DNA of 64,000 nucleotides from Chitinophagaceae bacterium (GTDB lineage: Bacteria > Bacteroidota > Bacteroidia > Chitinophagales > Chitinophagaceae). The notes beneath the pieces were generated by a model. It searched no databases and was not told the origin of the DNA. It worked only from the letters and a program-made list of their open reading frames with translations. The stretch covers positions 124,001 through 188,000 of the forward strand of contig CANLAE010000001.1 of the NCBI GenBank assembly GCA_947488765.1, in the 5' to 3' direction. Of the stretch, positions 34,189 to 54,705 are shown in pieces. Each line of letters begins with the position of its first letter. Position 1 is the stretch's first letter. The translations under genes and the position numbers were made by a program.

Positions 34189-34239
34189 TTCTCGAAATTA
34201 AGTTAGTATTTCTTTGAAATAATTTATTTTTATTAAAAT

Positions 34240-35334: not shown

Positions 35335-35353
35335 CTTCATTATTTTGTTCCAA

Positions 35354-36235: not shown

Positions 36236-36323
36236 TAAGTAATCGTAATAATTTTTCATTAATTGAATAAAAAAAATTATTTTAGGCGGAGAAAACAATT
36301 TTGCCATTAAAAAAACTACTTCT

Positions 36324-36749
36324 ATGAGAGGTGTAAACAGAGTCATGTTAATTGGTAATTTAGGGAAGGATCCGCACGTAGATTACCTAGATGGAAATAT
36401 TGGTGTTGCCAAATTTCCTTTGGCTACAACTGAAACATATAAGGATAGAAATGGAAAATTGGTAAGCCAAACAGAATGGCACACTGTGGTATTATGGAGG
36501 GGTTTAGCAGATTTAGCTGCAAAGTATTTACACAAAGGAAGCTTGGTATATATAGAAGGCAGATTAAGAACTCGCAGCTGGGAAGATAAAGAAGGCAATA
36601 AAAAATTTGCAACAGAAATTGTTGGCGACAATCTAATTATGTTGGAGAAAAAAAGTGATGGAGGCGGTAGTCATCCCGAACTTTTGGAAGGTTTTACAAG
36701 TAATGATGAGCCGCCATTAACAGACCCAAGTGAATCTTTGCCGTTTTAA
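36324..36749 (+). CDS. ssb: Single-stranded DNA-binding protein
   Basis: SSB coats single-stranded DNA during replication and repair. The 141-residue protein has the OB fold (about 1-108: GVNRVMLIGNLGKDP, TEWHTVVLWRGLADLAAKYL, KGSLVYIEGRLRTRSW), a short linker, and the acidic C-terminal tip ending in SLPF that recruits partner enzymes. Length is at the short end for the family because the linker is short. It is upstream of gldE and gldD, as in many Bacteroidota. Confidence 0.96.
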   Translation: MRGVNRVMLIGNLGKDPHVDYLDGNIGVAKFPLATTETYKDRNGKLVSQTEWHTVVLWRGLADLAAKYLHKGSLVYIEGRLRTRSWEDKEGNKKFATEIVGDNLIMLEKKSDGGGSHPELLEGFTSNDEPPLTDPSESLPF

Positions 36750-36833
36750 TTGAAATTAAAAGTATTTTCGTTTTAGGTTTATACAAGCGGTTACTAAAAA
36801 GCCACTTGTTATTGTTCAATAAAAATCACTGCT

Positions 36834-38153
36834 TTGGATTATCATTCGGTTTTATTTAAACCATTTCACCTTGCAATTATTAATGTACAAGGGACTACCG
36901 TTTTAATTATACTTCTTTTATGTTTACTCATTTTTTCTTTTATGATGAGTGGCGCCGAAGTGGCTTTTTTTTCTTTGACTTATAAAGACATCAATTCTTT
37001 AAAAGCTAAGCAGCAAGCGGGTTACAAGCGCATTGTAGAACTGCTGGAACAGCCCAAAATTTTATTGGGCACACTGCTTATTGCAAATAGCTTTGTAAAC
37101 ATTGCAATTATCATCATCAGTAATTTATTGATTAATAATTTTTTTCCTGCCGGACAAACATTGGAATGGATAGAATTTTTAATTAAAGTTGTTTCCGTCA
37201 CTTTTTTATTGGTGATGTTTGGAGAAGTCATGCCAAAAGTTTTGGCTACACAAAATAATATTCGCTTTGCAAAAGATGTAGGACCAATTGTAGAATTAAT
37301 ATTTTACCTCTTCAAAAACATCAGCAGTTGGCTAGTAAAATATAGCGATATCATTGAAAAAAAATTGGCACGCAGAACCAATGGATCTATTACCAATGAA
37401 GAGCTGTATCATGCTATTGATATTACCGATACTGGTACCAATGAAAAAGAAAAAACAATTTTAAAAGGCATTTTAAAATTTGGTAACACAAGTGTAAAGC
37501 AAATCATGAAAACCAGATTAGATGTGCATGGTGTTGATTATGATATTGCTTTTAATGACTTAATTGAAAAAGTTGGAGAACTTCACTACAGCAGACTTCC
37601 GGTGTATAAAGAAGATTTAGATGAAGTTGTAGGAATGATACATACCAAAGATTTAGTGCCTTTTTTACAACAAGATGCAACATTTGACTGGCACAAGATT
37701 ATGCGTCAGCCTTACTTTGTGCATGAGCAAAAGATGATTGAAGATTTATTAAAAGAATTTCAAAGTAAGCGAATACACTTTGCAGTAGTAGTAGATGAGT
37801 TTGGGGGCACAAGCGGCATTGTAACCATGGAAGATATTTTAGAAGAAGTGATTGGTGAAATAACAGATGAGTTTGATGAAGATGATGCAGAATACAAAAA
37901 GTTAGATGACTATAATTATCTTTTTGAAGGCAGAACGATGATTAATGATGTATGTAATTTTATGGAGCTTCCCACTGAAACTTTCGATGCAGTAAAAGGG
38001 GAAAGCGATTCACTTGCAGGTTTAGTTTTAGAAATTGCAGGTGAAATCCCAAAAGTACTTTCTGTAATTTCTTGCGGCGATTTTGATTTTACAATTATAG
38101 AAATGGAACGCAACAGAATTAATAAAATTAAGATTACAATCAAACCGCAATAG
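36834..38153 (+). CDS. gldE: Gliding motility protein GldE (CNNM/CorC-type membrane protein)
   Basis: The 439-residue protein starts at a TTG (36834), because the first ATG lies beyond the first membrane helix. It has an N-terminal CNNM domain with three or four helices (SGAEVAFFSL signature), a CBS pair (about 210-335: DVHGVDYD, HYSRLPVYKEDLDEVVGMIH, VVDEFGGTSGIVTMEDILEE) and a CorC/HlyC C-terminal domain. Such proteins resemble magnesium/cobalt efflux proteins. In Flavobacterium, GldE supports gliding together with GldD, whose gene follows 29 bases later. Confidence 0.93.
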   Translation: MDYHSVLFKPFHLAIINVQGTTVLIILLLCLLIFSFMMSGAEVAFFSLTYKDINSLKAKQQAGYKRIVELLEQPKILLGTLLIANSFVNIAIIIISNLLINNFFPAGQTLEWIEFLIKVVSVTFLLVMFGEVMPKVLATQNNIRFAKDVGPIVELIFYLFKNISSWLVKYSDIIEKKLARRTNGSITNEELYHAIDITDTGTNEKEKTILKGILKFGNTSVKQIMKTRLDVHGVDYDIAFNDLIEKVGELHYSRLPVYKEDLDEVVGMIHTKDLVPFLQQDATFDWHKIMRQPYFVHEQKMIEDLLKEFQSKRIHFAVVVDEFGGTSGIVTMEDILEEVIGEITDEFDEDDAEYKKLDDYNYLFEGRTMINDVCNFMELPTETFDAVKGESDSLAGLVLEIAGEIPKVLSVISCGDFDFTIIEMERNRINKIKITIKPQ

Positions 38154-38182
38154 GAGCCATAGTTTTGCAGAAATTGGATATC

Positions 38183-38776
38183 ATGAAAAAGCAGGTACTT
38201 TATTTATTTTGTTTCTTTGTTATTGCATGTAACAGTCCATTTACACCGAAGCCGAAAGGATATTTTAAAATTGATTTCCCCGAAAAAAAATACCAAACTT
38301 TTAATACAGCAAACTACCCGTATTCATTCGAATATCCCACTTATGCAGAGGTTGTCAAAGACTCTACTTTCTTTGGTGGTGCTACCGAAAATCCCTGGTG
38401 GATTAATATCAACTTCCCGCAGTTCAACAGCAAAATTTATATAAGCTATAAAGAAATTGGGAAAAATAGTTTCGACACTTTGGTAACAGATGCATTTAAA
38501 CTTACGGGGAAACATGCTCAAAAGGCTTATTCTATAGATGATTCAGCTTTTGCTACCCTAAATGGAGTACATGGTATTTATTTTAATGTTGGAGGTGAAG
38601 TGGCAACAGCCAATCAGTTTTTTTTAACAGACAGCACCAAACATTTTTTACGTGGGGCTTTGTATTTTGATGCAACCCCCAATGAAGATTCTCTTAGCAT
38701 TGTGAATCGTTTTATAGTAGCTGATTTAAAACACATGATCAATACTTTTCGGTGGACAAATACATCCAAAAAATAA
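38183..38776 (+). CDS. gldD: Gliding motility lipoprotein GldD
   Basis: I choose the ATG at 38183 (MKKQVLYLF), giving 197 residues with a lipobox VIAC and Cys16. The mature part has the family start PFTPKPKGYFKIDFPEKKYQ (in part), then PYSFEYP and ATENPWWININFPQFNSKIY. GldD is needed for gliding and is tied to the type IX secretion machinery; its biochemical role is not known. It follows gldE in the conserved ssb-gldE-gldD order. Confidence 0.94.
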   Translation: MKKQVLYLFCFFVIACNSPFTPKPKGYFKIDFPEKKYQTFNTANYPYSFEYPTYAEVVKDSTFFGGATENPWWININFPQFNSKIYISYKEIGKNSFDTLVTDAFKLTGKHAQKAYSIDDSAFATLNGVHGIYFNVGGEVATANQFFLTDSTKHFLRGALYFDATPNEDSLSIVNRFIVADLKHMINTFRWTNTSKK

Positions 38777-38828
38777 GCCCCGATTTTAGTCAAGGCTTAT
38801 CTTCAATATTTGTACTTTTTTCTTGTAA

Positions 38829-40301
38829 TTAAAATATTTCTTTCATTACCAAATCCTTCAAAGCACTCATGGCAACACGTTCTTGCAACATGCTGTCTCG
38901 GTAACGAATAGTAACTGTTCCATCTTCTTTTGTTTGATGGTCTATCGTAACACAAAACGGTGTACCAATAGCATCTTGTCGTCTGTAGCGCTTTCCAATT
39001 GCGTCTTTTTCTTCGTAGAAGCAATGAAAATATGGCTTACACTCCCTCATTAATTGTTGAGCCAATTCGGGTAACCCATCTTTTTTGGTAAGAGGCAAAA
39101 CTGCCAATTTCACCGGAGCAAGTTTTGCAGGCAAATGCAATACCACTCTTGTATCTGTTGTACCATCTTCTTTCGTTAATACTTCTTCTTCATAGGCATT
39201 AGACAACAACAATAAAAACATTCTGTCCAAACCAATAGATGTTTCTACAACATACGGAACATAGTTGCCATAAGGCTTTCCGGTGCTTTCATCAATATCA
39301 TTATCAAAATATTGTTGTTTCTTTTTGCTGTATTGTTGGTGTTGTGTTAAGTCAAAATCACTTCTGCTGTGTATGCCTTCTACTTCTTTAAAACCAAAAG
39401 GAAATTCATATTCAATATCACAAGCTTCTTTTGCATAATGCGCCAGCTTCACATGATCATGGTAACGATATTTTGTTGCAGGTAACCCCAAACTCAAATG
39501 CCATTTCAATCTTTCTTCTTTCCAATATTGATACCAAGTTCCTTCGGTGCCAGGGCGAACAAAAAACTGCATTTCCATTTGTTCAAATTCACGCATTCTA
39601 AAAATAAATTGTCTGGCTACAATTTCATTTCTAAAGGCTTTCCCTGTTTGGGCAATACCAAAAGGAATTTTCATTCTCGCTGTCTTTTGCACATTGAGAA
39701 AATTCACAAAAATTCCTTGTGCTGTTTCCGGACGTAAGTATACTTTATTGTCTTCTTCATTATCAGATACTGCACCAAACTCTGTTGAGAACATGAGGTT
39801 AAACTGACGCACATCTGTCCAATTGCCTGTGCCGCTTACGCTACAAACTATTTTATGATCTTCAATCAATTTTTTTAATCCGCCAAAATCTTCTGCAGCA
39901 AGCAAGGCTTCCATTGTTGCAATTAATGTTGCAGCTTCTTCACTTTTACCAGCAGCTGTTAATTGGTCAGCTTTTGCTTCAATCAAATGATCTACTCTGT
40001 AACGCTTGTTGCTATCCTTGTTATCAATCATCGGATCACTGAAATTATCTACATGCCCGCTTGCTTTCCAGATTGTCGGATGCATAAAAATTGCAGCATC
40101 AATACCCACAATATTTTCGTGCATTTGCGTCATACTCTTCCACCAGTAATCACGAATATTTTTTTTCAATTCACTGCCGTACGGACCATAATCGTACACG
40201 GCACTAAGCCCATCATAAATTTCACTTGACGGAAAAACAAAGCCATATTCTTTGGCATGCGAAATAATTGCTTGAAACGTATTCTCAGATTGTATGCTCA
40301 T
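38829..40301 (-). CDS. glyS: Glycyl-tRNA synthetase (homodimeric, class II)
   Basis: The enzyme charges tRNA-Gly. The 490-residue protein is the single-chain alpha2 type: GFVFPSSEIYDGLSAVYDYG opens the catalytic core, motif 2 is FRNEIVARQFIFRMREFEQME, motif 3 is ETSIGLDRMFLLLL. The anticodon-binding domain covers about 390-490 (LPAKLAPVKLAVLPL). A cysteine-poor insertion at about 95-170 is present. It is separated from the upstream MazG-like gene by a 137-base gap that holds the second copy of the 25-bp repeat. Confidence 0.96.
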   Translation of the reverse strand: MSIQSENTFQAIISHAKEYGFVFPSSEIYDGLSAVYDYGPYGSELKKNIRDYWWKSMTQMHENIVGIDAAIFMHPTIWKASGHVDNFSDPMIDNKDSNKRYRVDHLIEAKADQLTAAGKSEEAATLIATMEALLAAEDFGGLKKLIEDHKIVCSVSGTGNWTDVRQFNLMFSTEFGAVSDNEEDNKVYLRPETAQGIFVNFLNVQKTARMKIPFGIAQTGKAFRNEIVARQFIFRMREFEQMEMQFFVRPGTEGTWYQYWKEERLKWHLSLGLPATKYRYHDHVKLAHYAKEACDIEYEFPFGFKEVEGIHSRSDFDLTQHQQYSKKKQQYFDNDIDESTGKPYGNYVPYVVETSIGLDRMFLLLLSNAYEEEVLTKEDGTTDTRVVLHLPAKLAPVKLAVLPLTKKDGLPELAQQLMRECKPYFHCFYEEKDAIGKRYRRQDAIGTPFCVTIDHQTKEDGTVTIRYRDSMLQERVAMSALKDLVMKEIF

Positions 40302-40390
40302 AAGGCTGCAAAGATAATTGTATGCAAGTGGATTTTAAAGGCATATATGATTGGGTTTTTTATTACCCCAACAGCAGCATTTCAATTCAG

Positions 40391-40415
40391 CACCTGTTGC
40401 GTCGCACACTTGTAC
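40391..40415. repeat. 25-bp dispersed repeat, copy 2
   Basis: This is an exact copy, in the same orientation, of 3296-3320. It lies between the minus-strand MazG-like and glyS genes, again in a gap between co-directional genes. Bases on either side differ between the copies. Confidence 0.7.
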
Positions 40416-40438
40416 ACCATGAAATACTGTTCAACATT

Positions 40439-40777
40439 TTATCCCTTCAGCTTCTCATTTTCTAAATGCCTATTTGCATCTCTGTTTGTTTTCTTTTCAA
40501 AATTATTATGCAATGCTTCTGTAAGATTTACACCAGTTTGGTTGGCTAAGCAAATTAATACCCATAAAATATCGGCCATTTCATCGGGTAAATTTTTTTC
40601 CAAATCCGATTTTTTAAAGGATTGGTCGCCATAAGTTCTTGCCATTATTCTTGCTAATTCACCAACTTCTTCGGTAAGTATAGTCATATTAGTTAATTCG
40701 CTGAAATAGCGTACACCAATAGTTTTTATCCATTCATCTGCTTTTTGTTGTGCCTCGTGTAGTGTTATCTCTTGCAT
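40439..40777 (-). CDS. MazG-like nucleotide pyrophosphohydrolase
   Basis: The 112-residue protein is a small all-alpha NTP pyrophosphatase. The metal-binding acidic residues appear in LTEEVGELARIMARTYGDQ and in DEMADILWVLICLANQTG, the ExxE-DxxD pattern of the MazG superfamily. Such enzymes hydrolyse (d)NTPs, often non-canonical ones, to monophosphates. Length fits the short single-domain group. Its ATG shares one base with the dtd stop, so the two are translated together. Confidence 0.9.
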   Translation of the reverse strand: MQEITLHEAQQKADEWIKTIGVRYFSELTNMTILTEEVGELARIMARTYGDQSFKKSDLEKNLPDEMADILWVLICLANQTGVNLTEALHNNFEKKTNRDANRHLENEKLKG

Positions 40778-41229
40778 TATTCTTTATTTTTAGAATCAAT
40801 AATTATTGTTACAGGTCCGTCATTTACCAAAGCTACTTTCATATCTGCACCAAAGGTGCCGGTTTGTATAGGTTTGTTACTATCTTCTGTCAATTGAGCA
40901 ATCATTTTTTCATACATCTGTATGGCAAATTCGGGTTTGCTTGCTTTGATGTAAGATGGTCTATTTCCTTTTTTGGTGGCTGCAAATAAAGTAAACTGAC
41001 TAATCAATAATATACTTCCATCAACCTCCGAAACACTTTTATTCATTACACCATTTTCGTCATCAAATATTCTGATGTTGCTTATTTTGTTGCTCAGCCA
41101 AATAATGTCTTCTTCAGTATCTGCATCCTCAACACCCAACAATATCAATAGCCCATGATTTATTTGTCCGATAATGTTCCCATCAACTGTTACTTTGGCT
41201 TCACTTACACGTTGTAACACAACTCTCAT
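40777..41229 (-). CDS. dtd: D-aminoacyl-tRNA deacylase
   Basis: Dtd removes D-amino acids (and glycine from tRNA-Ala) from mischarged tRNA. The 150-residue protein has both active-site motifs: ISQFTLFAATKKGNRPS (SQFTL) and ALVNDGPVTIIID (here NDGPVT where NSGPVT or NxGPVT is usual). Length is standard. It is coupled to the MazG-like gene by TAATG, and that gene precedes glycyl-tRNA synthetase, so charging and proofreading enzymes cluster here. It is divergent from arfB. Confidence 0.95.
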   Translation of the reverse strand: MRVVLQRVSEAKVTVDGNIIGQINHGLLILLGVEDADTEEDIIWLSNKISNIRIFDDENGVMNKSVSEVDGSILLISQFTLFAATKKGNRPSYIKASKPEFAIQMYEKMIAQLTEDSNKPIQTGTFGADMKVALVNDGPVTIIIDSKNKE

Positions 41230-41251
41230 TTTTTACATTTAATTTTATGAA

Positions 41252-41659
41252 ATGAAGGTAGATATTACAAATGAAATATTTTTTAAAACAGCACGCAGTG
41301 GGGGTAGTGGTGGGCAAAATGTAAATAAAGTAGAAACTATGGTAGAAGGCAGGTGGAATGTTGCTGAAAGTATTATTACTACTAAAGATCAAAAAAACCT
41401 GATTGCTGAAAAGTTAAAAAATAAAATTACTGCTGAAGGATATTTACTTGTAAAATCACAAGAAACAAGAACGCAACTTGGCAATAAAGAAATTGTGATT
41501 AAGAAGATGAATGACCTGGTGAATATGGCTTTAGTAAAAAAGAAAAGCAGGATTGCAACTAAAATTCCGAAAGTTGAAATTGAAAAAAGAATTGAAAGTA
41601 AAAAGAGAAAATCACAACACAAACAAGGAAGAAAACGTTTAAAGCTCGGAGAATATTAA
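41252..41659 (+). CDS. arfB: Alternative ribosome-rescue factor ArfB (YaeJ-type peptidyl-tRNA hydrolase)
   Basis: The 135-residue protein releases peptides from ribosomes stalled without a stop codon. The catalytic GGQ motif lies in RSGGSGGQNVNKVET. The C-terminal 35 residues are strongly basic (KKRKSQHKQGRKRLK), the tail that enters the empty mRNA channel. Length and tail fit ArfB rather than RF1/RF2. The gene ends 2 bases before the di-heme peroxidase gene, so the two are co-transcribed although unrelated in function. Confidence 0.94.
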   Translation: MKVDITNEIFFKTARSGGSGGQNVNKVETMVEGRWNVAESIITTKDQKNLIAEKLKNKITAEGYLLVKSQETRTQLGNKEIVIKKMNDLVNMALVKKKSRIATKIPKVEIEKRIESKKRKSQHKQGRKRLKLGEY

Positions 41660-41661
41660 TC

Positions 41662-42714
41662 ATGAAAATGCTGAAAGTTATTTTGTTTTTATGCATACTC
41701 ATTTTTGTGGGAGAGGGTTTTATTGTGCTGCATAAACCCAAGCCCATCAAATTTAAAATCCCAAAAGGTTGGAAAAAGCCTTTGTATGATTTTAAAAATA
41801 ATCCCTTAACAGAAGAAGGTTTTTTATTGGGCAAAACATTATTTTATGATGAAATTTTAAGCAAAGACAGCAGCATCAGTTGTGCTAGTTGTCATCAACA
41901 GTTTGCAGCATTCTCAACTTACGATCATGCTCTTAGCCACGGCTACAATAATGTCTTTACAACCCGCAATGCACCTGCATTACAGAATTTGGCATGGCAG
42001 CCCAATTTTATGGCTGATGGCAGTATTGCTCACTTAGATGATCAACCCATTCATCCTATTACTGCAACAAATGAAATGGGTGAAACCATCGAAAATGTTA
42101 TTATCAAATTACAACGAAGTGCTAATTATCGTTCTTTATTTAAAGCAGCTTTTGGTGATGAAGCTATTACTACAACCCGCATGAATAAAGCCTTGAGCCA
42201 ATTTATTTTGCTATTGGTTAGCAGCAATAGTAAATACGACAAAGTAATGCGTAAAGAAGATTCCTTCAACCTTCCGCAACAATTGGGTTATGAAATATTT
42301 TTACAAAAATGCAATAGCTGTCATACTGCTCCCATGTTTACAGATTATACTTTTCGCAACAATGGAATGCGACAAGACAATTTGTTAAATGATTTGGGAA
42401 GAATGAAAGCAACGAATAACAAAAATGATTCACTAAAATTCAGGATTCCATCTTTACGAAACATAGCAATGACAATGCCTTACGGACATGATGGAAGATT
42501 TTTTAGTTTGCATCATGTGTTTGAACACTACAGAAAAAATATGGATGTGCAGCCAACAACAGATTCCTTATTTAAAAATAAATTGTTCTTATCCAATTTC
42601 GAAATTGGGCAGCTTACTGCATTTTTATACACATTAACAGACAGTTCATTTTTAAAAAATCCAATGTTTGCTCCGCCTGCTTTTACTGTAAAACCATCCA
42701 CACATGAGCATTAA
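41662..42714 (+). CDS. Di-heme cytochrome c peroxidase (MauG/CcpA family)
   Basis: The 350-residue exported protein reduces hydrogen peroxide in the periplasm with electrons from cytochrome c, or acts on another substrate as MauG does. An N-terminal hydrophobic segment (about 1-22) serves as signal or anchor. Two heme c sites are visible: CASCHQQ at about residue 75 and CNSCHTAP at about 220. The order with TRNAPALQNLAWQPNFMADG and FRIPSLRNIAMTMPYGHDGRF is typical of the family. No partner cytochrome is adjacent. Confidence 0.92.
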   Translation: MKMLKVILFLCILIFVGEGFIVLHKPKPIKFKIPKGWKKPLYDFKNNPLTEEGFLLGKTLFYDEILSKDSSISCASCHQQFAAFSTYDHALSHGYNNVFTTRNAPALQNLAWQPNFMADGSIAHLDDQPIHPITATNEMGETIENVIIKLQRSANYRSLFKAAFGDEAITTTRMNKALSQFILLLVSSNSKYDKVMRKEDSFNLPQQLGYEIFLQKCNSCHTAPMFTDYTFRNNGMRQDNLLNDLGRMKATNNKNDSLKFRIPSLRNIAMTMPYGHDGRFFSLHHVFEHYRKNMDVQPTTDSLFKNKLFLSNFEIGQLTAFLYTLTDSSFLKNPMFAPPAFTVKPSTHEH

Positions 42715-42755
42715 CAACATTCTATCCCTACTTTTGATTAAATAAATAATACAAG

Positions 42756-44252
42756 TTGAGCAAAATAAAAAAACTAGCCGGACAAACAATGTGGTATGGA
42801 ATAAGTTCTATTGCTGCAAGGTTTGTAAATTATTTGCTCACGCCTTATTTAACGTATAAATTTTCTGATACACAATACGGTGAAATGAGTATGGTATATG
42901 CATTTATACCATTCATGAATATCATTTTTACGTATGGCTTAGAAACGGCTTTTTTTCGGTTTGCAAATACCAATGATAAACAAACAATTTACAGCACCAC
43001 TAGTATTTCCATAATTGTTTCTACTATTTTGCTTTGTTTTGTTTTGGTGGGTTTAAAAACACCAATTACTACTTTACTACAAATCAATGAACACCCCGAT
43101 TATTTTTTGTATGTTGCTGCTATTATTGCGCTAGATGCCCTGTCATCTGTGCCTTTTGCAAAACTGCGACAAGACGGACGACCGGTAAAATATGCATTAG
43201 TACGTGTAGGCAGCATCTTAATAAATATTGTTTGCATTTATTTTTTCTTAAGCCTTTGTCCAAAATGGTTGGCAGAAAATCCTGCACATTGGTGTGCATC
43301 TTTTTTTAAACCCAACTGGGCGGTTGGTTATGTTTTGTTGGCTAATGTTGTTCAATCTGGTGTTGCACTTTTATTGTTGTCAAAAGAATTTTTTGGTTTC
43401 CAATGGAAGTTTGATGCGGCGCTATGGAAACAAATGATGTGGTATGGTATGCCATTGATTATTGCTGGTTTTGCTGGTATGATTAATGAAACTTTTGATA
43501 GAATCATGCTTGGCTGGTGGGCGCCTGTAAGTACTGTAGCTGCTGCAAAAGCAGAGGTTGGCGTATATTCGGCATGTTATAAATTATCTATTTTAATTAC
43601 CTTGGCAGTACAAGGTTTTAGAATGGGTGCAGAGCCTTTTTTCTTCAATCAATCAAAAGAAACAGATGCACCAAAAACATATGCAAGGGTAATGAAGTTT
43701 TTTGTGATTACACTTTGTTGTATGTTTTTAGCAGTGGTATTGTATTTAGATATTTGGAAACAATTTATTCGTAATCCAAAAATGTGGGTAGGATTAAGAG
43801 TGGTGCCTATTTTATTATTGGCAAATATTTTTTTAGGCATTTATTACAACTTGAATATTTGGTATAAGCTAGGAAACAAGACTATTGCAGGAGCCTATAT
43901 TACATTAATAGGAGCAACAATTACGCTTACCATTAATTACTTTTTCATTCCGCATTTTAGTTATTTGGCTTGCGCTTGGGCAACCTTTGCTTGTTATGGA
44001 AGTATGATGGTTATTAGTTTTTTATGGGGACAAAAAGAATACCCAATTCCTTATGCCTGGAAGAAATTAGTAGCTTATATTATAATTGTTGTTGTCATTT
44101 TTGGTATACACCAAACGATTATTTATTTCTATCAGCCCCTTTGGTTCAGCCTTGTAGCTGGTTCCATTTTATTCTTTGTTTTTCTAAAATTTATTTTATC
44201 AGCAGAAAGAAGAGAGTTTCAGAGTTTACCAATTATTGGTAAGTTTTTATAG
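42756..44252 (+). CDS. Polysaccharide biosynthesis flippase (Wzx/MATE-like)
   Basis: This 498-residue membrane protein starts at a TTG (42756), giving the usual N-terminus SKIKKLAGQTMWYGISSI; an ATG eleven codons later would cut into the first helix. It has about twelve to fourteen helices of the MOP superfamily and resembles O-antigen/capsule repeat-unit flippases (YLLTPYLTYKFSDTQYGEM, GMPLIIAGFAGMINETFDR). It probably moves lipid-linked glycan across the inner membrane. The next genes downstream are broken fragments, one from a polysaccharide export gene. Confidence 0.9.
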   Translation: MSKIKKLAGQTMWYGISSIAARFVNYLLTPYLTYKFSDTQYGEMSMVYAFIPFMNIIFTYGLETAFFRFANTNDKQTIYSTTSISIIVSTILLCFVLVGLKTPITTLLQINEHPDYFLYVAAIIALDALSSVPFAKLRQDGRPVKYALVRVGSILINIVCIYFFLSLCPKWLAENPAHWCASFFKPNWAVGYVLLANVVQSGVALLLLSKEFFGFQWKFDAALWKQMMWYGMPLIIAGFAGMINETFDRIMLGWWAPVSTVAAAKAEVGVYSACYKLSILITLAVQGFRMGAEPFFFNQSKETDAPKTYARVMKFFVITLCCMFLAVVLYLDIWKQFIRNPKMWVGLRVVPILLLANIFLGIYYNLNIWYKLGNKTIAGAYITLIGATITLTINYFFIPHFSYLACAWATFACYGSMMVISFLWGQKEYPIPYAWKKLVAYIIIVVVIFGIHQTIIYFYQPLWFSLVAGSILFFVFLKFILSAERREFQSLPIIGKFL

Positions 44253-44533
44253 TAAACAGACCTAATTTCTCTGAGCCAAATTTTTTGCAGATAAATAATA
44301 ATTTTATTGATTCGTTCAAGGACAAGTTTATTTTGATACTTTTCTGTTTTTTAATCTTCGGAATTTTGTTTTTTCTAAAATAATTGTTAAGAACAAGTAC
44401 TTACCAATGCGTAAAGCATTGTAAAACAAAGACAAAAAATAAATCCATTTTTCTACCATTTATTTTGGCATGCCTTGGCTTAATATTTGTTTTTCAACTG
44501 GCAACTTCATTTTTTAAAATCCAATATTCAATT

Positions 44534-44920
44534 ATGAAAAAGCCAGTAGGTATTTTCCTGTCCATTCTATGCTTGTTCGTGCTGATGAGCCATAGAACAT
44601 TTGCAACAACTTATTATGTTGATCCATCATCAACATCAGCCACAGCGAATGGCTCATTAGCCAGTCCGTGGAAAACAATTGCACAGGTAAACAGCGGTGC
44701 AACAGCATTAAATCCTGGAGACATGGTGCTCTTTAAAAGAGGACAAACCTTTTCGGGAAAACTGAGTATTCCCAGATCCGGAACGGCTACAAGCCCAATT
44801 GTGTATGGGAATTATGGAACGGGAAATTTACCCGAGTTTAACAATGCGGTAAGTGATATTATCAATATCAGTTCAAAACAATATGTGGTGATTGATGGGA
44901 TAAAAATTATTGACAATTCT
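44534..44920 (+). pseudogene. 5' fragment of a secreted parallel beta-helix (pectate lyase-like) protein gene
   Basis: The ATG at 44534 starts a clear signal peptide (MKKPVGIFLSILC, cleavage near TFA/TTYYVD). The mature part follows the beginning of right-handed beta-helix proteins: YYVDPSSTSATANGSLASPW, then GDMVLFKRGQTFSGKL and KQYVVIDGIKIIDNSIS. Homology-like sequence ends near 44920. The frame then runs for 33 more codons through sequence that is antisense to another gene and stops at 45019. Normal members are several hundred residues longer, so only the N-terminal 129 or so codons remain. It may be a real rearrangement or an assembly join. Confidence 0.7.
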
Positions 44921-45321
44921 ATCAGTAATTTTTTTTCTAAAATAGTATTGGTAATATTATCCTTTAATTGTTTTTTAGACATTCCGTCTGCTTTAATGTT
45001 TCCTAAAATGGGAAGTTGAATGTAGCCATCCGCATTTACTAAATAACCAGCAGATTGTGTATTGGTTCCGGAAGCTGTTGATGCACTGATTACAAAATTA
45101 TTGGTGGTATTAAATATGGCAGAAGCCTCCGGATTTAAACTGCTGATTGCAATACTGAGTATATCATTTTTTTGAATCAATACAACACTGTCTCTGTTTG
45201 TTTGTAAATACGTAGCATCCGCTGCATTATTTATGTAGCTTGCATTTTTCGTAGTGATACAAGAGGAGTTTTGTAGAAAAGCAAGAAATGTCATTAAATA
45301 AATGAAATGTTTTTGAATCAT
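44918..45321 (-). pseudogene. 5' fragment of a polysaccharide export (Wza-like) lipoprotein gene
   Basis: The ATG at 45321 starts a lipoprotein signal (lipobox NSSC, Cys21). The mature part shows the Poly_export domain: LIQKNDILSIAISSLNPEAS, then SAGYLVNADGYIQLPILGNIKADGMSKKQLKDNI in outline. Then, where DPxVxVR is expected after KKLLI, it changes to sequence antisense to the beta-helix fragment. The frame stops at 44812 without further family features, and the SLBB domains are missing. Intact homologues have about 260 residues or more. It faces the beta-helix fragment head to head across 44920. Confidence 0.72.
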
Positions 45322-45607
45322 GGTTTTATCAATATTGGTTCAGTAATATTTTATTGACCGCAAAAAATCTTACTGATGAATCTGCTATTTATAACACGAA
45401 AATATTGTTACAACTATGCACAGAATATGATTGCAAAGCATAAACAAAGTGATACCAATCATTTTCAAAAAACAACTTCTGTTTTTAGATAAATGACAGA
45501 CAAAAAAGTTATTCATTATTATACAGAAATGAATTACTGTAATTCCGCTTAATTCAATACATTTACTTCTTCATTAACCCCTTTTTATATAAAATGAAAA
45601 ACAACAG

Positions 45608-45967
45608 ATGAAAAAATTATTGCTAAGTTTAATGATTGTTTGTGCATCTGCAATATCTGTTTCGGCACAACAATTAACACCCGATGAAGCAGCAAAACAT
45701 ATTGGTGAAACAGTAACCATTTGTGGAAAAATTTATGGCGGAAAATATTTTGACAATGGAAACAAAATGACCCTATTAAACATGGGTGCTGCTTTTCCTA
45801 AATCTCCATTAACTATTGTTATTAATGCAGATGACCGTAAAAACTTTAAAAATGCGCCAGAAGATTTTTATACCAACAAAACAGTTTGCATTAAAGGTGT
45901 AATTAAAGAATACAAGGGCAAACCACAAATCATTATCCAATCAGAAGAAGATTTAAAATCAGAATAA
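45608..45967 (+). CDS. Exported OB-fold-like protein, unknown function
   Basis: The 119-residue protein has a signal peptide (MKKLLLSLMIVCASAISVSA/QQ). The mature part, about 98 residues, looks like a small OB fold of the tRNA_anti/YdeI kind: IGETVTICGKIYGGKYF, then LTIVINADDRKNF, then TVCIKGVIKEYKGKPQIIIQ. Two cysteines (in TICGK and TVCIKG) could form a disulfide. I know no function. It is a single-gene unit with a strong terminator. Confidence 0.78.
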   Translation: MKKLLLSLMIVCASAISVSAQQLTPDEAAKHIGETVTICGKIYGGKYFDNGNKMTLLNMGAAFPKSPLTIVINADDRKNFKNAPEDFYTNKTVCIKGVIKEYKGKPQIIIQSEEDLKSE

Positions 45968-45984
45968 TTTATTTTATTACGATT

Positions 45985-46018
45985 AAAAATTGCCCAATAA
46001 TATTGGGCAATTTTTTTT
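45985..46018. terminator. Intrinsic terminator after the OB-fold gene
   Basis: ATTGCCCAATA and TATTGGGCAAT form a perfect 11-bp stem with a single-base loop, with A before and eight T after. It begins 18 bases after the stop codon. Confidence 0.85.
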
Positions 46019-46106
46019 GCTGACATCAATCATAACAAACGCCTATTACCTGCATTTCTATTGCTAAAAGCCTTGATTAATTTTATACAAACAAAAAAAT
46101 TAAATC

Positions 46107-46610
46107 ATGGAAACAACAATCCTGGAAGCAAAACAAACCAACCTAAATACAATTGGATTGGATAAAAAACATGCGAAAGAACTTGCCAAAAAACTAAATG
46201 TTCTACTAGCCAACTATTCTGTTTTTTACCAAAATGTAAGAGGCTATCACTGGAATCTTAAGGGAGAAAACTTTTTTGAACTGCATGTAAAGTTTGAAGA
46301 ACTATATAGCCACTTGTATAAGAAAATTGATGTCATTGCGGAAAGAATTGCAACCTTGGGTTTTATTGCAAACCATAATTTTTCAGTATATCATTTAGAG
46401 TCTAGAATTATAGAGCAAACAGATGTTGAAGGCGATATTTCTGCAGCAGAAGATATTGTTGAATCACTATACAAAGTAATTGCCATTGAAAGAGAAATTC
46501 TATCTTTTGCTACTGAAATGAAAGATGCCGGAACATACCAATTGTTTGGCGATGTTATTAAAGCAGAAGAAAAAATTGCTTGGATGTATCGTGCTTATTT
46601 GGCAAAATAA
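46107..46610 (+). CDS. dps: Dps family ferritin-like DNA-protection protein
   Basis: The 167-residue protein forms dodecamers that oxidise ferrous iron with peroxide and protect DNA. It has the ferroxidase residues in RGYHWNLKGENFFELHVKFEELY (outline: His, then Asp/Glu) and the second-helix region KKIDVIAERIATLG, with a further DVEGDISAAEDIV segment. There is no signal peptide. It is followed 22 bases later by a small conserved gene. Regulation by peroxide or stationary phase is usual but not visible here. Confidence 0.95.
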   Translation: METTILEAKQTNLNTIGLDKKHAKELAKKLNVLLANYSVFYQNVRGYHWNLKGENFFELHVKFEELYSHLYKKIDVIAERIATLGFIANHNFSVYHLESRIIEQTDVEGDISAAEDIVESLYKVIAIEREILSFATEMKDAGTYQLFGDVIKAEEKIAWMYRAYLAK

Positions 46611-46631
46611 TGATTGCAAAAAAATCAGTTT

Positions 46632-46949
46632 ATGATTCGGCATTTTCACTACGGCACCGTTACCGAAGCAATCAACTACTTCGCAAAACAAGGCTATACA
46701 ATTGATTTTAATTTAAAAGATAATTTTTTTAACGCTTCAGGGAAAAAGATTTTTGATCCTGAAGCTTTTGAAATAATTGACCTTTACCATTATGAAGGCA
46801 ACTCAGACCCCGGAGATGAAGCTACCGTTTATGCAATAGAATCAGCAACCGGCGGCAAAGGAGTTTTTGTAAGTGGTAATGGTAATGACATAGATATTGA
46901 AACAGCCAAAATGTTGTCTTTCCTACATTTTAAACATACTACCAAATAA
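46632..46949 (+). CDS. Conserved small protein of Bacteroidota (family often mislabelled phosphoribosylpyrophosphate synthetase)
   Basis: I use the ATG at 46632 (MIRHFHYGTVTEAINYF), giving 105 residues. The sequence TEAINYFAKQGYTIDFNLKDN, then PEAFEIIDLYHYEGNSDPGDE and ATVYAIES define a small Bacteroidota family. Database entries of this family often carry the name phosphoribosylpyrophosphate synthetase, but the protein lacks the PRPP-binding loop and is a third of that enzyme's size. The true role is unknown. It follows dps by 21 bases and is probably co-transcribed. Confidence 0.8.
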   Translation: MIRHFHYGTVTEAINYFAKQGYTIDFNLKDNFFNASGKKIFDPEAFEIIDLYHYEGNSDPGDEATVYAIESATGGKGVFVSGNGNDIDIETAKMLSFLHFKHTTK

Positions 46950-47031
46950 AATAATAATTTTTTTGCAGAATAATATAGTCCAATTTTCAAGCCAATGCCA
47001 CCCCACCAATATTATTCAATTAAAGCAAAAA

Positions 47032-48171
47032 TCATCCAATTGCTTTGTTCAAATCCTCAATCAAATCATCTGCATCTTCAATACCAACACTCAATCTTAT
47101 CAATCCATCGCTCAATCCGTTTTTAAGTCTTTCCTCTCTCGGAATACTTGCATGCGTCATTGTTGCCGGATGATTAATTAAACTTTCCACCCCACCCAAA
47201 CTTTCTGCCAATGAAAATAAATGTGTAGAAGACAACACCCTATTCACTTCTGCAATACTATCATTTTTCAGCTCAAAGCTAATCATACCGCCAAATCCAC
47301 GCATTTGTTGCTTTGCAATTGCATAGCCTTTGCTGTCTTCAAAACCTGGCCAATATACTTTTGCAACTTTCGGATTATTGCGCAACCAATGCGCAATCTT
47401 AATCCCATTTTCACAATGTCGTTGCATACGGACATGCAATGTTTTAATACCTCGCAACACCAAAAAACAATCCTGCGGACCAGGCACTGCACCACAACTT
47501 TTTTGTATAAAATACAATTGATCTCTCAATGAAGTATCATTCATTACAAGGCATCCTTGAATTACATCACTATGACCGCCCAAATATTTTGTAGCACTGT
47601 GCATTACAATGTCAGCGCCCAAATCCAATGGGTTTTGAAGGTACGGCGACGCAAAAGTATTGTCCACGCAAAGCAAACAACCATGTGCTTTTGTTATCGC
47701 AGCCACAGCAACAATATCCGTAATATTCATCAACGGATTGGTAGGTGTTTCAAGCCAAACTAATTTCGTTTTAGCAGAAATTGCATTTGCAATATTTTCT
47801 ACGTTCGTAGTATCAACATACTTAAATACAATTCCAAATTTTTCAAACACTTTTGTAAACAATCGATAAGTGCCACCATACATATCATTTGCAGCAACCA
47901 CTTCATCACCCGGAGAAAGCAATTTAATTACCGCATCGGTAGCAGCCACACCACTGCTAAAAGCCAAACCATGTTTTCCATTTTCAATTACTGCAAAAGC
48001 CGCTTCCAGCGCAGATCTTGTAGGATTTTGGCTGCGTGCATATTCGTATCCTTTGTGTTTTCCCGGAGCCTCTTGCACATAAGTGCTTGTCTGATAAATA
48101 GGCACCATTACCGATCCGGTACTTGGGTCGGGCTCCATTCCGGCATGTATCATTTTCGTAGCAAGTTTCAT
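47032..48171 (-). CDS. Cystathionine gamma-synthase/gamma-lyase family PLP enzyme
   Basis: I start at the ATG at 48171 (MKLATKMIHAGMEPD), giving 379 residues; the open frame upstream is a shadow of another gene. Features are PIYQTSTYVQ, YEYARSQNPTRSALE, AFSSGVAATDAVIKLL, the PLP lysine in HSATKYLGGHSD, and SLGGVESLINHPATMTHASI. These belong to the transsulfuration family that makes cystathionine from O-acylhomoserine and cysteine, or cleaves it. MetB and gamma-lyase activities cannot be separated by sequence. It lies 44 bases after a surface-protein fragment. Confidence 0.93.
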   Translation of the reverse strand: MKLATKMIHAGMEPDPSTGSVMVPIYQTSTYVQEAPGKHKGYEYARSQNPTRSALEAAFAVIENGKHGLAFSSGVAATDAVIKLLSPGDEVVAANDMYGGTYRLFTKVFEKFGIVFKYVDTTNVENIANAISAKTKLVWLETPTNPLMNITDIVAVAAITKAHGCLLCVDNTFASPYLQNPLDLGADIVMHSATKYLGGHSDVIQGCLVMNDTSLRDQLYFIQKSCGAVPGPQDCFLVLRGIKTLHVRMQRHCENGIKIAHWLRNNPKVAKVYWPGFEDSKGYAIAKQQMRGFGGMISFELKNDSIAEVNRVLSSTHLFSLAESLGGVESLINHPATMTHASIPREERLKNGLSDGLIRLSVGIEDADDLIEDLNKAIG

Positions 48172-48215
48172 CGTTTCGTTAATTTTATTTTTATTAGTAA
48201 AATGATTGGTAGCTA

Positions 48216-48494
48216 TCAGCAAAAGTTGACAACCCAACTGTTGTAAGGGCTTTTCGCAGTAGTACCTGTAAATGTTTCTATCGTTTTTTTGTCTGTATTG
48301 TAAATCTGCAAGCCGGTGGCAGGTAAGGAAATAGCATCTCGCTGAGCAGTGGTCATACGTGGTGGCAAAAGGCTTTGGGTGGTTGATGTTATATCTAATT
48401 TTGCAGATGCATCGGGAGTGCAAGTACCTATACCTACTTGAGAAAAAATGTTTAATGACAACGCTAGCATTAAAGCCAATAAAAATTGTTTCAT
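48216..48494 (-). CDS. Short exported protein resembling the N-terminus of large surface proteins (likely truncated)
   Basis: From the ATG at 48494 (MKQFLLALMLALSLNIFSQ) the 92-residue product has a signal peptide and then VGIGTCTPDASAKLDITSTT followed by SLLPPRMTTAQRDAISLPATGLQIYNTDKK. This segment typically opens much larger cell-surface proteins in Chitinophagales. Here the frame stops shortly after (TAKSPYNSWVVNFC). It could be a truncated remnant or a genuine short form. It lies between a structured repeat-like element and the transsulfuration gene. Confidence 0.6.
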   Translation of the reverse strand: MKQFLLALMLALSLNIFSQVGIGTCTPDASAKLDITSTTQSLLPPRMTTAQRDAISLPATGLQIYNTDKKTIETFTGTTAKSPYNSWVVNFC

Positions 48495-48620
48495 AGTTAC
48501 TGTTTTGAAAACCAATTGGGGGTTGTTTTAATAAAATCCAACGATAGGGCTAAATTATGATTATATTACCACATACTCTTAAATGACAGGGTTGAGATAA
48601 AGAGTTTTGTTCAATCTTAT

Positions 48621-48728
48621 TGCCCTGCGCAAGGGCTGCGTGATGGAAGTGGTTAGCACCCGATGCAATCGGGACTATTAACGCACAGCACGAAATTCAG
48701 CCGGGGTAAGCGATACAGCCGATAGCCC
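48621..48728. repeat. GC-rich structured intergenic element, possible dispersed repeat or structured RNA
   Basis: This stretch is visibly richer in G and C than its surroundings. It holds hairpins GCCCT-GCGCA-AGGGC (48622-48636) and CCCGAT-GCA-ATCGGG (48659-48673). A longer-range pairing joins GCTGCGT (48635-48641) with ACG-CA-CAGC (48681-48689). No good reading frame crosses it. It resembles dispersed intergenic repeats of Chitinophagaceae, but that is from memory and only one copy is in this window. Confidence 0.45.
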
Positions 48729-48748
48729 AAAATTTTTTTGATTTTTGT

Positions 48749-49480
48749 TTAAAATTTTGTGTCAATAATGTATGGCAACATCTTACACCAAGTAGACCAA
48801 TCGTGGTGAATATCACCTCCCCAAATATCAAAATCGTGCCAGATGCCTTTGTCCCAAAGGATTTGAGAGAACCGTTTGTTGGCATCAGGAGCTTCGTAGT
48901 TGCCGCTTCCGGTATATATGTGTATGTTGCGACTTGCTTTTATTTTGTCAACATACCATTCATTATTTAGGTTGGGAATATAATGCGCAGGAGAATTGTA
49001 ATACACTTGCTCGTCCCAAAAGCCTTTGGTGTATTCAGTTAAATCGTACACGCCGCTCATACAAATACATCCGTTGATAATATCGGGGCGTTTTAAAAAT
49101 AAATTCATGCTATGCAGTGCACCAAAGCTTGCACCCGATGTATAAATCATGGTATTGCTGCCAACAATATTTCGTATATACGGAATCGTTTCATTGAATA
49201 CATAATGATTGAAATCATTGTGACGTATGGCTTTATGCTCGGGCAGAATTTCGTTGTTCATCCAACTTTCGTTGTTAATGCTGTTGATACTAAAAATACG
49301 CAACTTGCCGGCGTGTATTTGTGTTGCCAAAGACTGTATCAGCTGAAATCTTTCATACTCTAAATAATCTGCAGCAGCTGTTGGAACCAGCAACAAAACA
49401 AATCCACTATAGCCATAAGAGACGATAGGCATTTCTTTTTGCAATGCTTGGCTATACCAAGAAGCTAGTTGTCTGTTCAT
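48749..49480 (-). CDS. Alpha/beta-hydrolase fold esterase-like protein
   Basis: The 243-residue protein resembles the putative esterase group (COG4947/esterase D-like). The nucleophile elbow is SGASFGALHSM with S118. DGNY-like acids lie after HIYTGSGNYEAPD, and the histidine is probably in GGDIHHDWSTW. The protein is full-length for the group, with no signal peptide. The natural substrate is unknown. It lies 30 bases downstream of the ParA gene on the same strand, so the two could be one operon. Confidence 0.82.
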   Translation of the reverse strand: MNRQLASWYSQALQKEMPIVSYGYSGFVLLLVPTAAADYLEYERFQLIQSLATQIHAGKLRIFSINSINNESWMNNEILPEHKAIRHNDFNHYVFNETIPYIRNIVGSNTMIYTSGASFGALHSMNLFLKRPDIINGCICMSGVYDLTEYTKGFWDEQVYYNSPAHYIPNLNNEWYVDKIKASRNIHIYTGSGNYEAPDANKRFSQILWDKGIWHDFDIWGGDIHHDWSTWCKMLPYIIDTKF

Positions 49481-49510
49481 GAATAAATTACTTGGTATAT
49501 TTTTGCTGTT

Positions 49511-50245
49511 TTAAAGACATTGTTTTTTAATTTCTTTCCACAAATCTCTAAAACATTGGGCTGCATAACTTGTATTGGCAAATTCAAATAGGGGTTGTTG
49601 ATGAATACCCATTTTTTCAATATCACTCAAATAAGGAATATAGCATTTAAAGAAAAGTCGGTTATTGTAAAATGCCTGAATAGTTTCTTGGTGCAAGGTT
49701 TTGCGGTGATCTACCATGCTGAAAAAACATTTTAGTTTTAATTTGTCTAACTCGTTTTCTTTGAAATAAGCTGCAACCATTTCATAACTTCTGATAGAAA
49801 GTGTAGTAGGAATATTGGGCATTATTACAAAGTCTGATGCAGTGAAAACACTATCGTGCAACAAAGAAATTCCCGGCGGACAATCGAGTATTACCAGATC
49901 AAAATCTTTCAATCCGCTTAATAGTGATTTTATTTTTTTCTTGCTTTGTCTTACATCATCTAAAACAAGATCTACATTTCTTGCCGATATATCTGCGGGG
50001 ATGACATACAAATTTTCAAAAGGTGATTGTTGGATAGAATCTTTGATTTCTGTTTTATCTAAAAATATTTTTTCGCTTTCGTTTTTATCATTTTTTACAT
50101 GCAAATAAAATGAGGAAGAGCCTTGTGGGTCTAAATCCCAAACCAACGTTTTAATTCCATCGGCTGCGGCTAAGTAAGCAAAATTTACTGCGGCAGCGGT
50201 TTTTCCAACTCCACCTTTGAGGTTATAAAAAGCAAGCGTTTTCAT
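49511..50245 (-). CDS. Orphan ParA-family ATPase
   Basis: The 244-residue protein has the deviant Walker A motif KGGVGKT (K10-T16), Walker A' VWDLDPQGSSS, and Walker B LVILDCPPG. These mark ParA/Soj-type ATPases that position DNA or protein cargo on the nucleoid. No ParB-like gene is adjacent, and the neighbours are an esterase and uvrB. Chromosome segregation is less likely than placing some other cargo. Two parS-like sites occur about 8.5 kb away near mnmG, but a link is speculative. Confidence 0.9.
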   Translation of the reverse strand: MKTLAFYNLKGGVGKTAAAVNFAYLAAADGIKTLVWDLDPQGSSSFYLHVKNDKNESEKIFLDKTEIKDSIQQSPFENLYVIPADISARNVDLVLDDVRQSKKKIKSLLSGLKDFDLVILDCPPGISLLHDSVFTASDFVIMPNIPTTLSIRSYEMVAAYFKENELDKLKLKCFFSMVDHRKTLHQETIQAFYNNRLFFKCYIPYLSDIEKMGIHQQPLFEFANTSYAAQCFRDLWKEIKKQCL

Positions 50246-50395
50246 ATTTTGTCTTTTTTGGTTTTTTATTTATCCGGTTAATGAAAAGAACAACTGCTTT
50301 GATTGGAGCAGATGCTTCATTGGTCGGGATGGGTTTTACGGTAGGAAAATTAAGCAAATGTTGCCGATACAACAACTTTGTGTGGAGTTGTTTTT

Positions 50396-52435
50396 TTATA
50401 CTTTCATTTTTTCTAGTTCTTTTTGCAGTCGGAACATTTCGTCTCTTAATCTTGCGGCTTCCATAAAATCCAAATCTCTTGCGGTTTTTTCCATTTGCTT
50501 TTTTATTTGTGCAATGGCTTTTTCTGTTTGTGGAATCGTTTGATAGGTTTCCTGCTCTTCGGCTGCAATGTTTATTGCACCTGGTTCTCCGGTGATAGCG
50601 TATGGATTGGTTGGGTCAAATCCTTTAATATCTAACACCGAGGTTTGCTTCATAATCTCTTCAATGTTCTTTTTAACGGTTGTAGGTATTATTCCATGTT
50701 TTAAATTATATGCTACTTGCTTTTCTCGTCTTCTGTCGGTTTCATCCATCGTACGCTGCATACTTTTGGTAATTTTATCTGCATAAAATATTACTTTACC
50801 ATCTACATTTCTTGCAGCACGACCGGCCGTTTGTGTAAGGCTTCTTTCGTTTCTTAAAAACCCTTCTTTATCGGCATCTAAAATGGCAACCAAAGACACT
50901 TCAGGCAAATCCAATCCTTCTCTTAATAAATTAACACCCACCAATACATCAATATCTCCCAACCGCAGCTGCCGCAATATTTCTATGCGTTCCAGCGTAT
51001 CTACATCGCTGTGAATATATTTTGATTTTATGTTGATTCTGCCCAGGTATTTATCCATTTCTTCAGCCATTCTTTTGGTTAAAGTTGTTACCAAAACACG
51101 GTCTCCTTTTTTTACGGTTTTATCAATTTCATCGAGCAAATCATCAATTTGATTTACACTTGGTCGTACTTCAATTGGCGGTTCAATTAATCCCGTTGGT
51201 CTTACCACTTGTTCAACTACCACACCACCGGTTTTTTCCAATTCATAATCTCCCGGAGTGGCACTTACGAAAACGGTTTGACCAATCATGTTTTCAAATT
51301 CATAAAAATTGAGCGGTCTGTTGTCTAATGCCGATGGTAAACGAAAGCCATAATCTACAAGCACCAATTTTCTGCTTCTATCGCCTCCGTACATACCAGC
51401 AATTTGTGGAATTGTTTGATGGCTTTCATCAATCATACAAATAAAATCTTTGGGGAAATAATCTAATAAACAAAAGGGTCTTGTGCCCGGCGTTCGTCTG
51501 TCAAAAAAACGGGAATAGTTTTCAATGCCGCTACAATAGCCGAGCTCTCTAATCATTTCCAAATCATATTCTACTCTTTCTTTGATACGTTGTGCTTCTA
51601 AAAATTTTCCTACGCCCTTAAAGTATTCTACCTGCGCCATCATCTCATCCTGAATTTCATGAATCACTTGCTGCATCATGTCTTTAGGAGCAAGGTATAA
51701 ATTAGCGGGAAAAATTGCAGCCGTTTCTAAAGTTGCAATGCGCTTGCTAGTTGTTTTTTCAATGCTTTCAATCTCTTCAATTTCGTCTCCAAAAAAAGTA
51801 ATGCGGTAACCATAATCTACATAAGGTAAATTAATATCTACGGTATCCCCTTTTACACGAAAGTTTCCTCTTGCAAAATCTCCCTGAGACCTGCTGTACA
51901 AGCTATTCACAAGCGCATGCAAAAAACCTTGTCTTGAAATAACCTGTCCTTTTTGAATGCGAATAATTCCATTTTCAAATTCAGTAGGATTGCCCATACC
52001 ATAAATACAGCTTACGCTTGCAACAATGATAATGTCTCTTCTGCCACTGAGCAATTCGGATGTGGCTTGTAAACGAAGCTTATCCAGCTCTTCATTAATG
52101 CTTAAATCTTTTTCAATGTACACACCACTTACCGGCATGTATGCTTCGGGCTGATAATAATCATAATAGCTTACAAAATAACCCACTGCATTATCCGGAA
52201 AAAATTGTTTAAACTCTCCATACAATTGCGCCACAAGTGTTTTGTTGTGTGTTAAGACCAATGTTGGACGTTGCAATTGGGTAATTACATTGGCCATGGT
52301 AAATGTTTTTCCGCTGCCGGTAACGCCTAATAAAGTTTGGAATTGTTCGCCGGAATGAATCGTTTCAACCAATTGTTGAATTGCTGTTGGCTGATCGCCG
52401 CTTGGCTGATAAGAAGATTGTAACTGGAAAAGCAT
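50396..52435 (-). CDS. uvrB: Excinuclease ABC subunit B
   Basis: UvrB verifies DNA damage and loads UvrC in nucleotide excision repair. The 679-residue protein is complete. Walker A is GVTGSGKT (37-44), the beta-hairpin wedge is FVSYYDYYQPEAYMP (about 88-102), and the helicase motifs continue to GVNLLREGLDLPEVSLVAILDADKEG and QTAGRAARNVDGK. The C-terminal UVR coiled coil (KQMEKTARDLDFMEAARLRDEM) binds UvrC. The UvrA and UvrC genes are not in the window. Confidence 0.97.
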   Translation of the reverse strand: MLFQLQSSYQPSGDQPTAIQQLVETIHSGEQFQTLLGVTGSGKTFTMANVITQLQRPTLVLTHNKTLVAQLYGEFKQFFPDNAVGYFVSYYDYYQPEAYMPVSGVYIEKDLSINEELDKLRLQATSELLSGRRDIIIVASVSCIYGMGNPTEFENGIIRIQKGQVISRQGFLHALVNSLYSRSQGDFARGNFRVKGDTVDINLPYVDYGYRITFFGDEIEEIESIEKTTSKRIATLETAAIFPANLYLAPKDMMQQVIHEIQDEMMAQVEYFKGVGKFLEAQRIKERVEYDLEMIRELGYCSGIENYSRFFDRRTPGTRPFCLLDYFPKDFICMIDESHQTIPQIAGMYGGDRSRKLVLVDYGFRLPSALDNRPLNFYEFENMIGQTVFVSATPGDYELEKTGGVVVEQVVRPTGLIEPPIEVRPSVNQIDDLLDEIDKTVKKGDRVLVTTLTKRMAEEMDKYLGRINIKSKYIHSDVDTLERIEILRQLRLGDIDVLVGVNLLREGLDLPEVSLVAILDADKEGFLRNERSLTQTAGRAARNVDGKVIFYADKITKSMQRTMDETDRRREKQVAYNLKHGIIPTTVKKNIEEIMKQTSVLDIKGFDPTNPYAITGEPGAINIAAEEQETYQTIPQTEKAIAQIKKQMEKTARDLDFMEAARLRDEMFRLQKELEKMKV

Positions 52436-52607
52436 GTATGCAAATTAGATTAATTAAAGAATTTTTCGTGAAGAATTTTTGAATAAAGGCTAGGGGTGCA
52501 AAACGTTTTTAAATAGCCAGGGGTAGTTTTTTACAATAAAATTAAATACCAAGAACTTATATTGTTGCAACAACTCTATTTCATTTTTTATAAGTCGCAG
52601 CAAAGTA

Positions 52608-52615
52608 TAATTTTG
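52608..52615 (+). promoter_or_regulatory. -7 promoter element of the 88-residue gene
   Basis: TAATTTTG matches TAnnTTTG exactly, 43 bases before the ATG at 52659. The -33 region is a T run with no TTTG. Confidence 0.35.
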
Positions 52616-52658
52616 CGAAGAAGCATTATTAGATAACACAATATCAAACAAAAATATT

Positions 52659-52925
52659 ATGAACAGGGTTCAAGCAATTTTAACCATCGACACAGATAAC
52701 CTTCCGGATAATTTTCCTGAAATATTAAAAGAAGAACAGGCAGTCGTAGCACTATGGAAAGAGCAAGGATTTTTAGACCATTTCTTTTTAAGACAAACCA
52801 AAAATGGTGCAGTATTAATTTTTAAAGATCTTGATGAAGAAAAGGTAAAAGAATTAATGCAACAACTTCCATTTTACAAACTGAAAAAAAGCATTGAATA
52901 TTTTAGCTTGATAAAACAATATTAA
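52659..52925 (+). CDS. Small muconolactone isomerase-like fold protein
   Basis: The 88-residue protein fits the ferredoxin-like fold seen in muconolactone delta-isomerase and YCII-type proteins: a beta strand with VQAILTIDTD, a helix EEQAVVALWKEQGFLDHFFL, and a second pair RQTKNGAVLIFKDLDEEKVKELMQQLPFYK (outline). No catalytic residues can be assigned. It has a promoter-like site upstream and is divergent from uvrB. Whether it is an enzyme or a binding protein is unknown. Confidence 0.65.
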   Translation: MNRVQAILTIDTDNLPDNFPEILKEEQAVVALWKEQGFLDHFFLRQTKNGAVLIFKDLDEEKVKELMQQLPFYKLKKSIEYFSLIKQY

Positions 52926-53108
52926 AGCCCGATTTAATCTTTATTTAAATTTTTTCTTTCGGATAAAAAGATTAGGTGCATCATTTTTGTAACAAACTAT
53001 CGGCGCATTTTTGATAAATATTATATCACAGTTTAGCCTAATTTTATTTTTTTAATCCCACCAAGTTTTGCACCAGATGATTATTTATTTACAAAAAGTT
53101 TCTTCCTA

Positions 53109-54632: not shown

Positions 54633-54705
54633 AAAATTCTTTATCAATTCAAGAGGCAAAGTTTTAATACTCTCAGGATGAGAATTTAATCTCAAATAAA
54701 TTAAA

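Follow-up and report, generated by a model that had tools for sequence, protein, structure and literature searches.

The window analysed here, a 64,000-nucleotide stretch of a Chitinophagaceae genome (G000), contains at positions 44908–44927 a junction that is very likely the scar of one recent deletion, in which an exopolysaccharide cluster of at least 26.9 kb was lost between a beta-helix/SprB gene and a wza-like gene. The initial annotation had considered a misassembly or else a deletion or inversion, perhaps affecting a surface-polysaccharide region. Loss of a surface-polysaccharide cluster by deletion is strongly supported by collinearity with the close relative G005, by the content of the cluster found there, by the failure of searches to find that cluster in G000, and by the repeat at the join. 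The colliding gene stubs can be read as the trace of an entire surface-polysaccharide cluster that disappeared recently and whose content is known from G005: gene loss of an ordinary kind caught soon after the event. Searches of the literature on deletion and microdiversity listed no title on this locus.

Two open frames with overlapping 3' ends meet at the junction, one on the plus strand (44384–45019) and one on the minus strand (44812–45321). The plus-strand gene probably starts at the ATG at 44534 and not at the TTG at 44384, with a sequence that by eye resembles a signal peptide directly after it. The plus chimeric frame (44534–45019) comprises a beta-helix stub followed by approximately 32 antisense wza codons, and the minus chimeric frame (44812–45321) a wza stub followed by approximately 35 antisense beta-helix codons. 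Pfam searches yielded no significant match for the plus frame and a match of the minus frame to Poly_export (PF02563; E 9.6e-12), spanning residues 45–131 and lying entirely before the junction. The earlier description of two genes reading into the antisense of each other is therefore borne out; the term "head to head" is not, since it is the 3' ends of the stubs that come together, an arrangement that is strictly tail to tail.

Each side of the junction corresponds to a separate gene of G005, a member of the same genus with 84–91% DNA identity in the main blastn pieces, which confirms the proposed collision of a beta-helix-type and a wza-like fragment. Among 59 genomes, with G000 counted, the minus stub was matched in 36 and the plus stub in 12. 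The best matches outside G000 were, for the minus stub, an intact G005 protein (G005:C1:206850, 94% over 134 residues) and, for the plus stub, G005:C3:73345 (95% over 129 residues). Both are therefore real 5' gene stubs: on the plus strand, the signal sequence and about 100 residues of a beta-helix/SprB-repeat gene (44534–44920), and on the minus strand, 134 codons of a gene for a wza-like polysaccharide export lipoprotein (44920–45321), about 132 of them in common with G005. Alignment of each side separately to relatives, as had been advised, located longer genes on two G005 contigs, and a single real gene spanning the region is ruled out by these separate, longer counterparts.

The extent of what is missing from each gene can be read from the same comparison. 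The G005 wza-like protein is intact at 261 residues and covers profile positions 5–75 of Poly_export, with an SLBB match below the cut-off. The window frame covers only positions 5–65 of the 77-position profile, has no SLBB match at E 1, and accordingly lacks the complete Poly_export and SLBB region that a functional Wza-type export lipoprotein needs. The G005 homologue of the plus stub is likewise longer; it carries an SprB repeat, and its Beta_helix match is weak and falls under the curated cut-off. Its frame reaches the end of contig 3, at 676 residues counted from its ATG. Both stubs would be pseudogenes, and annotators are cautioned that the chimeric frames, too, are in all likelihood pseudogenes and not new fusion proteins. 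G005 contains two related beta-helix-type genes, L042:4639-6030 (minus strand) and L041:345-2372 (plus strand), which are 65–69% identical in their matched parts and flank the G005 cluster, one at each of the contig ends; the longer of the two carries SprB repeats and, on the other contig end, a Por_Secre_tail. The second beta-helix gene of G005 was rejected as the source of the stub, being 65% identical to it versus 95% for the first beta-helix gene, in which the stub has its best match.

To locate the junction, the window was compared by blastn with stretches fetched from G005. Positions 25200–44927 (25200 being the edge of the fetched stretch) are collinear with the right-hand end of contig 3 in G005, as far as the beta-helix gene, and positions 44908–64000 with G005 contig 1, reversed and beginning within wza, with alignment gaps in the latter series at 48267–48726 and 52481–54703 of the window. 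Because the matches to the two loci end at 44927 and start at 44908, respectively, the join lies within these 20 positions. The initial annotation was right that both frames lose their family sequence at one point, which it had placed at 44917–44922; the ends of the blastn matches set the interval at 44908–44927.

Contig 3 of G005 ends 1643 bases past the stub, within the beta-helix/SprB gene, and contig 1 runs for 25377 bases past the wza stub; at its end lies a partial beta-helix/SprB gene that encodes SprB repeats and a Por_Secre_tail. Since the two contig ends hold two gene parts and have 111 exact bases in common, the beta-helix/SprB gene and wza very probably bracket an exopolysaccharide cluster in G005. 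The simplest reading is that contigs 3 and 1 represent one locus that was split by repeats in the assembly. As expected of a deletion scar, both flanks are then collinear with an undeleted relative, given the adjacency that we infer for the G005 contigs. On the same assumption, the segment missing from the window would measure at least 26909 bases (roughly 27,000 or more), a size taken from G005 and a lower bound, as the repeat count in the gap between the contigs enters no figure. G005 is the one relative that carries the cluster at this place.

The content of the G005 segment was assessed in a Pfam scan of 20 proteins, 19 of them from G005. The scan identified Poly_export, Wzz/GNVR/AAA_31, Wzy_C, Bac_transf, a NusG-like protein, three Glycos_transf_1 proteins, a polysaccharide deacetylase, DUF354, a methyltransferase, an acyltransferase, a GFO/IDH/MocA oxidoreductase and a UDP-GlcNAc 2-epimerase (Epimerase_2). 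Three of the 19 G005 proteins (L038:2886-3908, L038:4999-6300 and the second beta-helix protein) had no Pfam match at E 0.001, and among the frames outside the scan, one was recognised by eye as flippase-like. We take the segment to be an exopolysaccharide cluster of the Wzx/Wzy type, a system name assigned from general knowledge to a Pfam content that was tested. It resembles such clusters with Wza/Wzc export in Poly_export, Wzz/GNVR/AAA_31, Wzy_C, Bac_transf, Glycos_transf_1, Epimerase_2 and the NusG-like protein, whereas the window retains just a 5' wza stub.

The cluster was then sought elsewhere in G000, using three DNA pieces that together span the contig-1 part of the G005 segment and scoring the best 40 candidates per genome (of 127, 186 and 163 in G000). 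Within these candidates, the first piece matched only two short stretches (72 bases and 33 bases); the second gave no match; and the third matched the plus stub (77% identity, to the second beta-helix gene) and one further stretch of 54 bases. A control on the second piece, rerun with G005 included, found it in G005 and not in G000. At the protein level, Wzy had no match in G000 versus one in G005 in the same search, and the long beta-helix protein, also searched with G005 included, matched G000 over its first 133 residues only, as the stub. Neither the 3' part of wza nor the remainder of the beta-helix gene was found elsewhere in G000.

The Wzc protein of the cluster, searched in 10 genomes of the genus, matched G005 at 100%, with an additional 29% homologue on contig C19. 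In G000, its matches were a full-length homologue at 29% (C8:84223) and, on C5, a weak partial hit containing a stop, with nothing closer; seven other genomes carried homologues at about 31%, and G004 had no match. The C8 contig of G000 also carries a wza-like frame without stops, 32% identical, and is collinear with G005 C19 at 90–93%. Bac_transf matches numbered two in G000 and four in G005, one of the latter with an internal stop. Because orthologues of the cluster were not found in G000 and the C8/C19 locus is collinear, one polysaccharide locus appears to have been lost and at least one other wza/wzc locus kept. The intervening DNA is thus absent from the genome, as in a deletion scar, within the best 40 DNA candidates and with only distant Wzc homologues present. 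The cell has very probably lost one surface polysaccharide while retaining at least one other wza/wzc locus.

The condition of the stubs bears on the age of the event. Neither contains a stop or a frameshift before the join, and their dN/dS values relative to G005 (NG86), 0.06 (127 codons) and 0.05 (132 codons), are close to those of intact neighbours, namely the flippase (0.04), the small protein at 45608–45967 (0.12), a dps-like gene (0.12) and a metB-like gene (0.05). Stubs that are free of stops and frameshifts and diverge like their intact neighbours indicate a recent loss. The values indicate that constraint on the stubs was normal during most of the period after the G005 lineage diverged, with the loss being recent on that scale. 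It is a tentative possibility that the assembled strain truly carries the deletion and that the cluster persists in other cells of the species, a situation that would add to the deletion reading and whose odds overlap with it. The slight decay of the stubs is consistent with such a mixed population, and deletions are described as common within lake bacterial populations, with lake bacterioplankton genomes carrying as many as hundreds of such variants inside populations (PMC9426551); against it, the assembly searches gave no sign of the cluster.

The sequence at the join points to how the deletion could have arisen. In the window, TATTGACAAT (44908–44917) is followed directly by TCTATCAGTA (44918–44927); each 10-mer occurs once in the window, counting both strands. 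The antisense of G005 wza reads TATTGACAAT, four extra bases and then TCTATCAGTA, and the G005 beta-helix gene reads exact TATTGACAAT followed by TCTATCAGTA with one mismatch and without the four bases. The exact in-register run at the break in G005 is 7 bases, the 10-base first block being out of register by four; an ancestor that already carried the base of the window would raise the run to 10. Among 2,000,000 junctions drawn at random between the two G005 genes, 0.08% showed a common run of 7 bases or more and 0.004% one of 10 bases or more. When these genes were aligned locally without constraints, the result was only a long noisy alignment. They also have six 10-base matches and one 11-base match elsewhere in common, so the short repeat at the break is not the sole candidate site.

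A short sequence common to both ends, imperfect and with 7–10 exact bases, is thus present in one copy at the join, which suggests a deletion between short direct repeats. The deletion would start within the beta-helix/SprB-repeat gene and end within the wza-like gene facing it across the cluster; the two ends would pair at the imperfect repeat, and the DNA between them would be lost. The repeat length suggests independence from RecA, and the scar makes slipped replication or single-strand annealing without RecA the most likely route. A comparable loss of DNA between imperfect direct repeats, with one repeat left at the join, is known from E. coli. There (PMC5426353), RecA-independent loss was seen in vivo for a perfect 46-bp plasmid repeat, and loss of an island with imperfect repeats (146/148 bp, 77% identity, 20 bp perfect) was seen by PCR only. 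Unlike these models, the window repeat spans about 20–24 bases, 7–10 of them exact, and its mechanism is read from the scar. Since deletion rates climb with repeat length (PMC5426353), few deletions are to be expected at such short repeats. It is very doubtful that the locus is a polysaccharide island under phage selection that is lost again and again, with the repeat in the beta-helix and wza genes making the loss recur in natural populations. The spread of the deletion might, speculatively, be explained by escape from phages or grazers or by cost saving.

Metagenome assembly often misses variable surface-polysaccharide loci, and the organism might have the cluster, its two ends having been misjoined and the cluster left out through assembly or binning. 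Such an artefact is unlikely: a misjoin by k-mers would be expected to involve more than the 7–10 exact common bases at the join, neither the missing gene ends nor the cluster turned up in the assembly (37 contigs, rated 100% complete), and both flanks stand where a single deletion would place them.

The initial annotation had placed the possible surface-polysaccharide region next to the flippase gene, which proved weak evidence on what kind of region this is. This flippase-like gene (42756–44252, plus strand; PF01943) is intact, lies in a conserved neighbourhood and is 95% identical in G005. In 29 of 49 named loci with a flippase relative, a dtd, arfB or MauG-like gene lies within 4 kb upstream, as in the window. 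The beta-helix stub matched one of the 49 loci (L060, G005's own record) and the wza stub none, with 44 of the 49 extending at least 2 kb past the flippase. In seven other members of the genus, the upstream flippase neighbourhood was present in two and absent from five, and neither stub matched in these stretches, one of which ends soon past the flippase; G004 had no flippase match. Given the conserved upstream neighbours and the single beta-helix match, the flippase was rejected as a marker of the cluster; it was probably not part of what was lost. On the other side, the next gene past the wza stub, in the window and G005 alike, is intact and encodes a small protein whose start looks like a signal sequence (45608–45967, plus strand).

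That an inversion or translocation brought two distant loci together with no cluster lost between them is extremely improbable, for although the two flanks lie on different G005 contigs, the ends of these contigs carry the two beta-helix/SprB gene parts with their overlap, and the failure to find the wza 3' part or the beta-helix remainder elsewhere in G000 speaks against an inversion with a reciprocal junction. Nor does a single deletion call for an inversion, because in the G005 order that we infer, wza and the beta-helix gene already point towards each other from opposite sides of the cluster.

Two further differences from G005 were observed in the window. A TPR-repeat gene lies at 53109–54632 (plus strand), and the matching place in G005 has short similar pieces only (23–94 bases); G005 may have lost this gene by deletion. 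A short frame at 48216–48515 (minus strand), mostly within the interval 48267–48726 that is unaligned with G005, resembles by eye the 5' part of a gene for a secreted surface protein and is possibly another gene stub.
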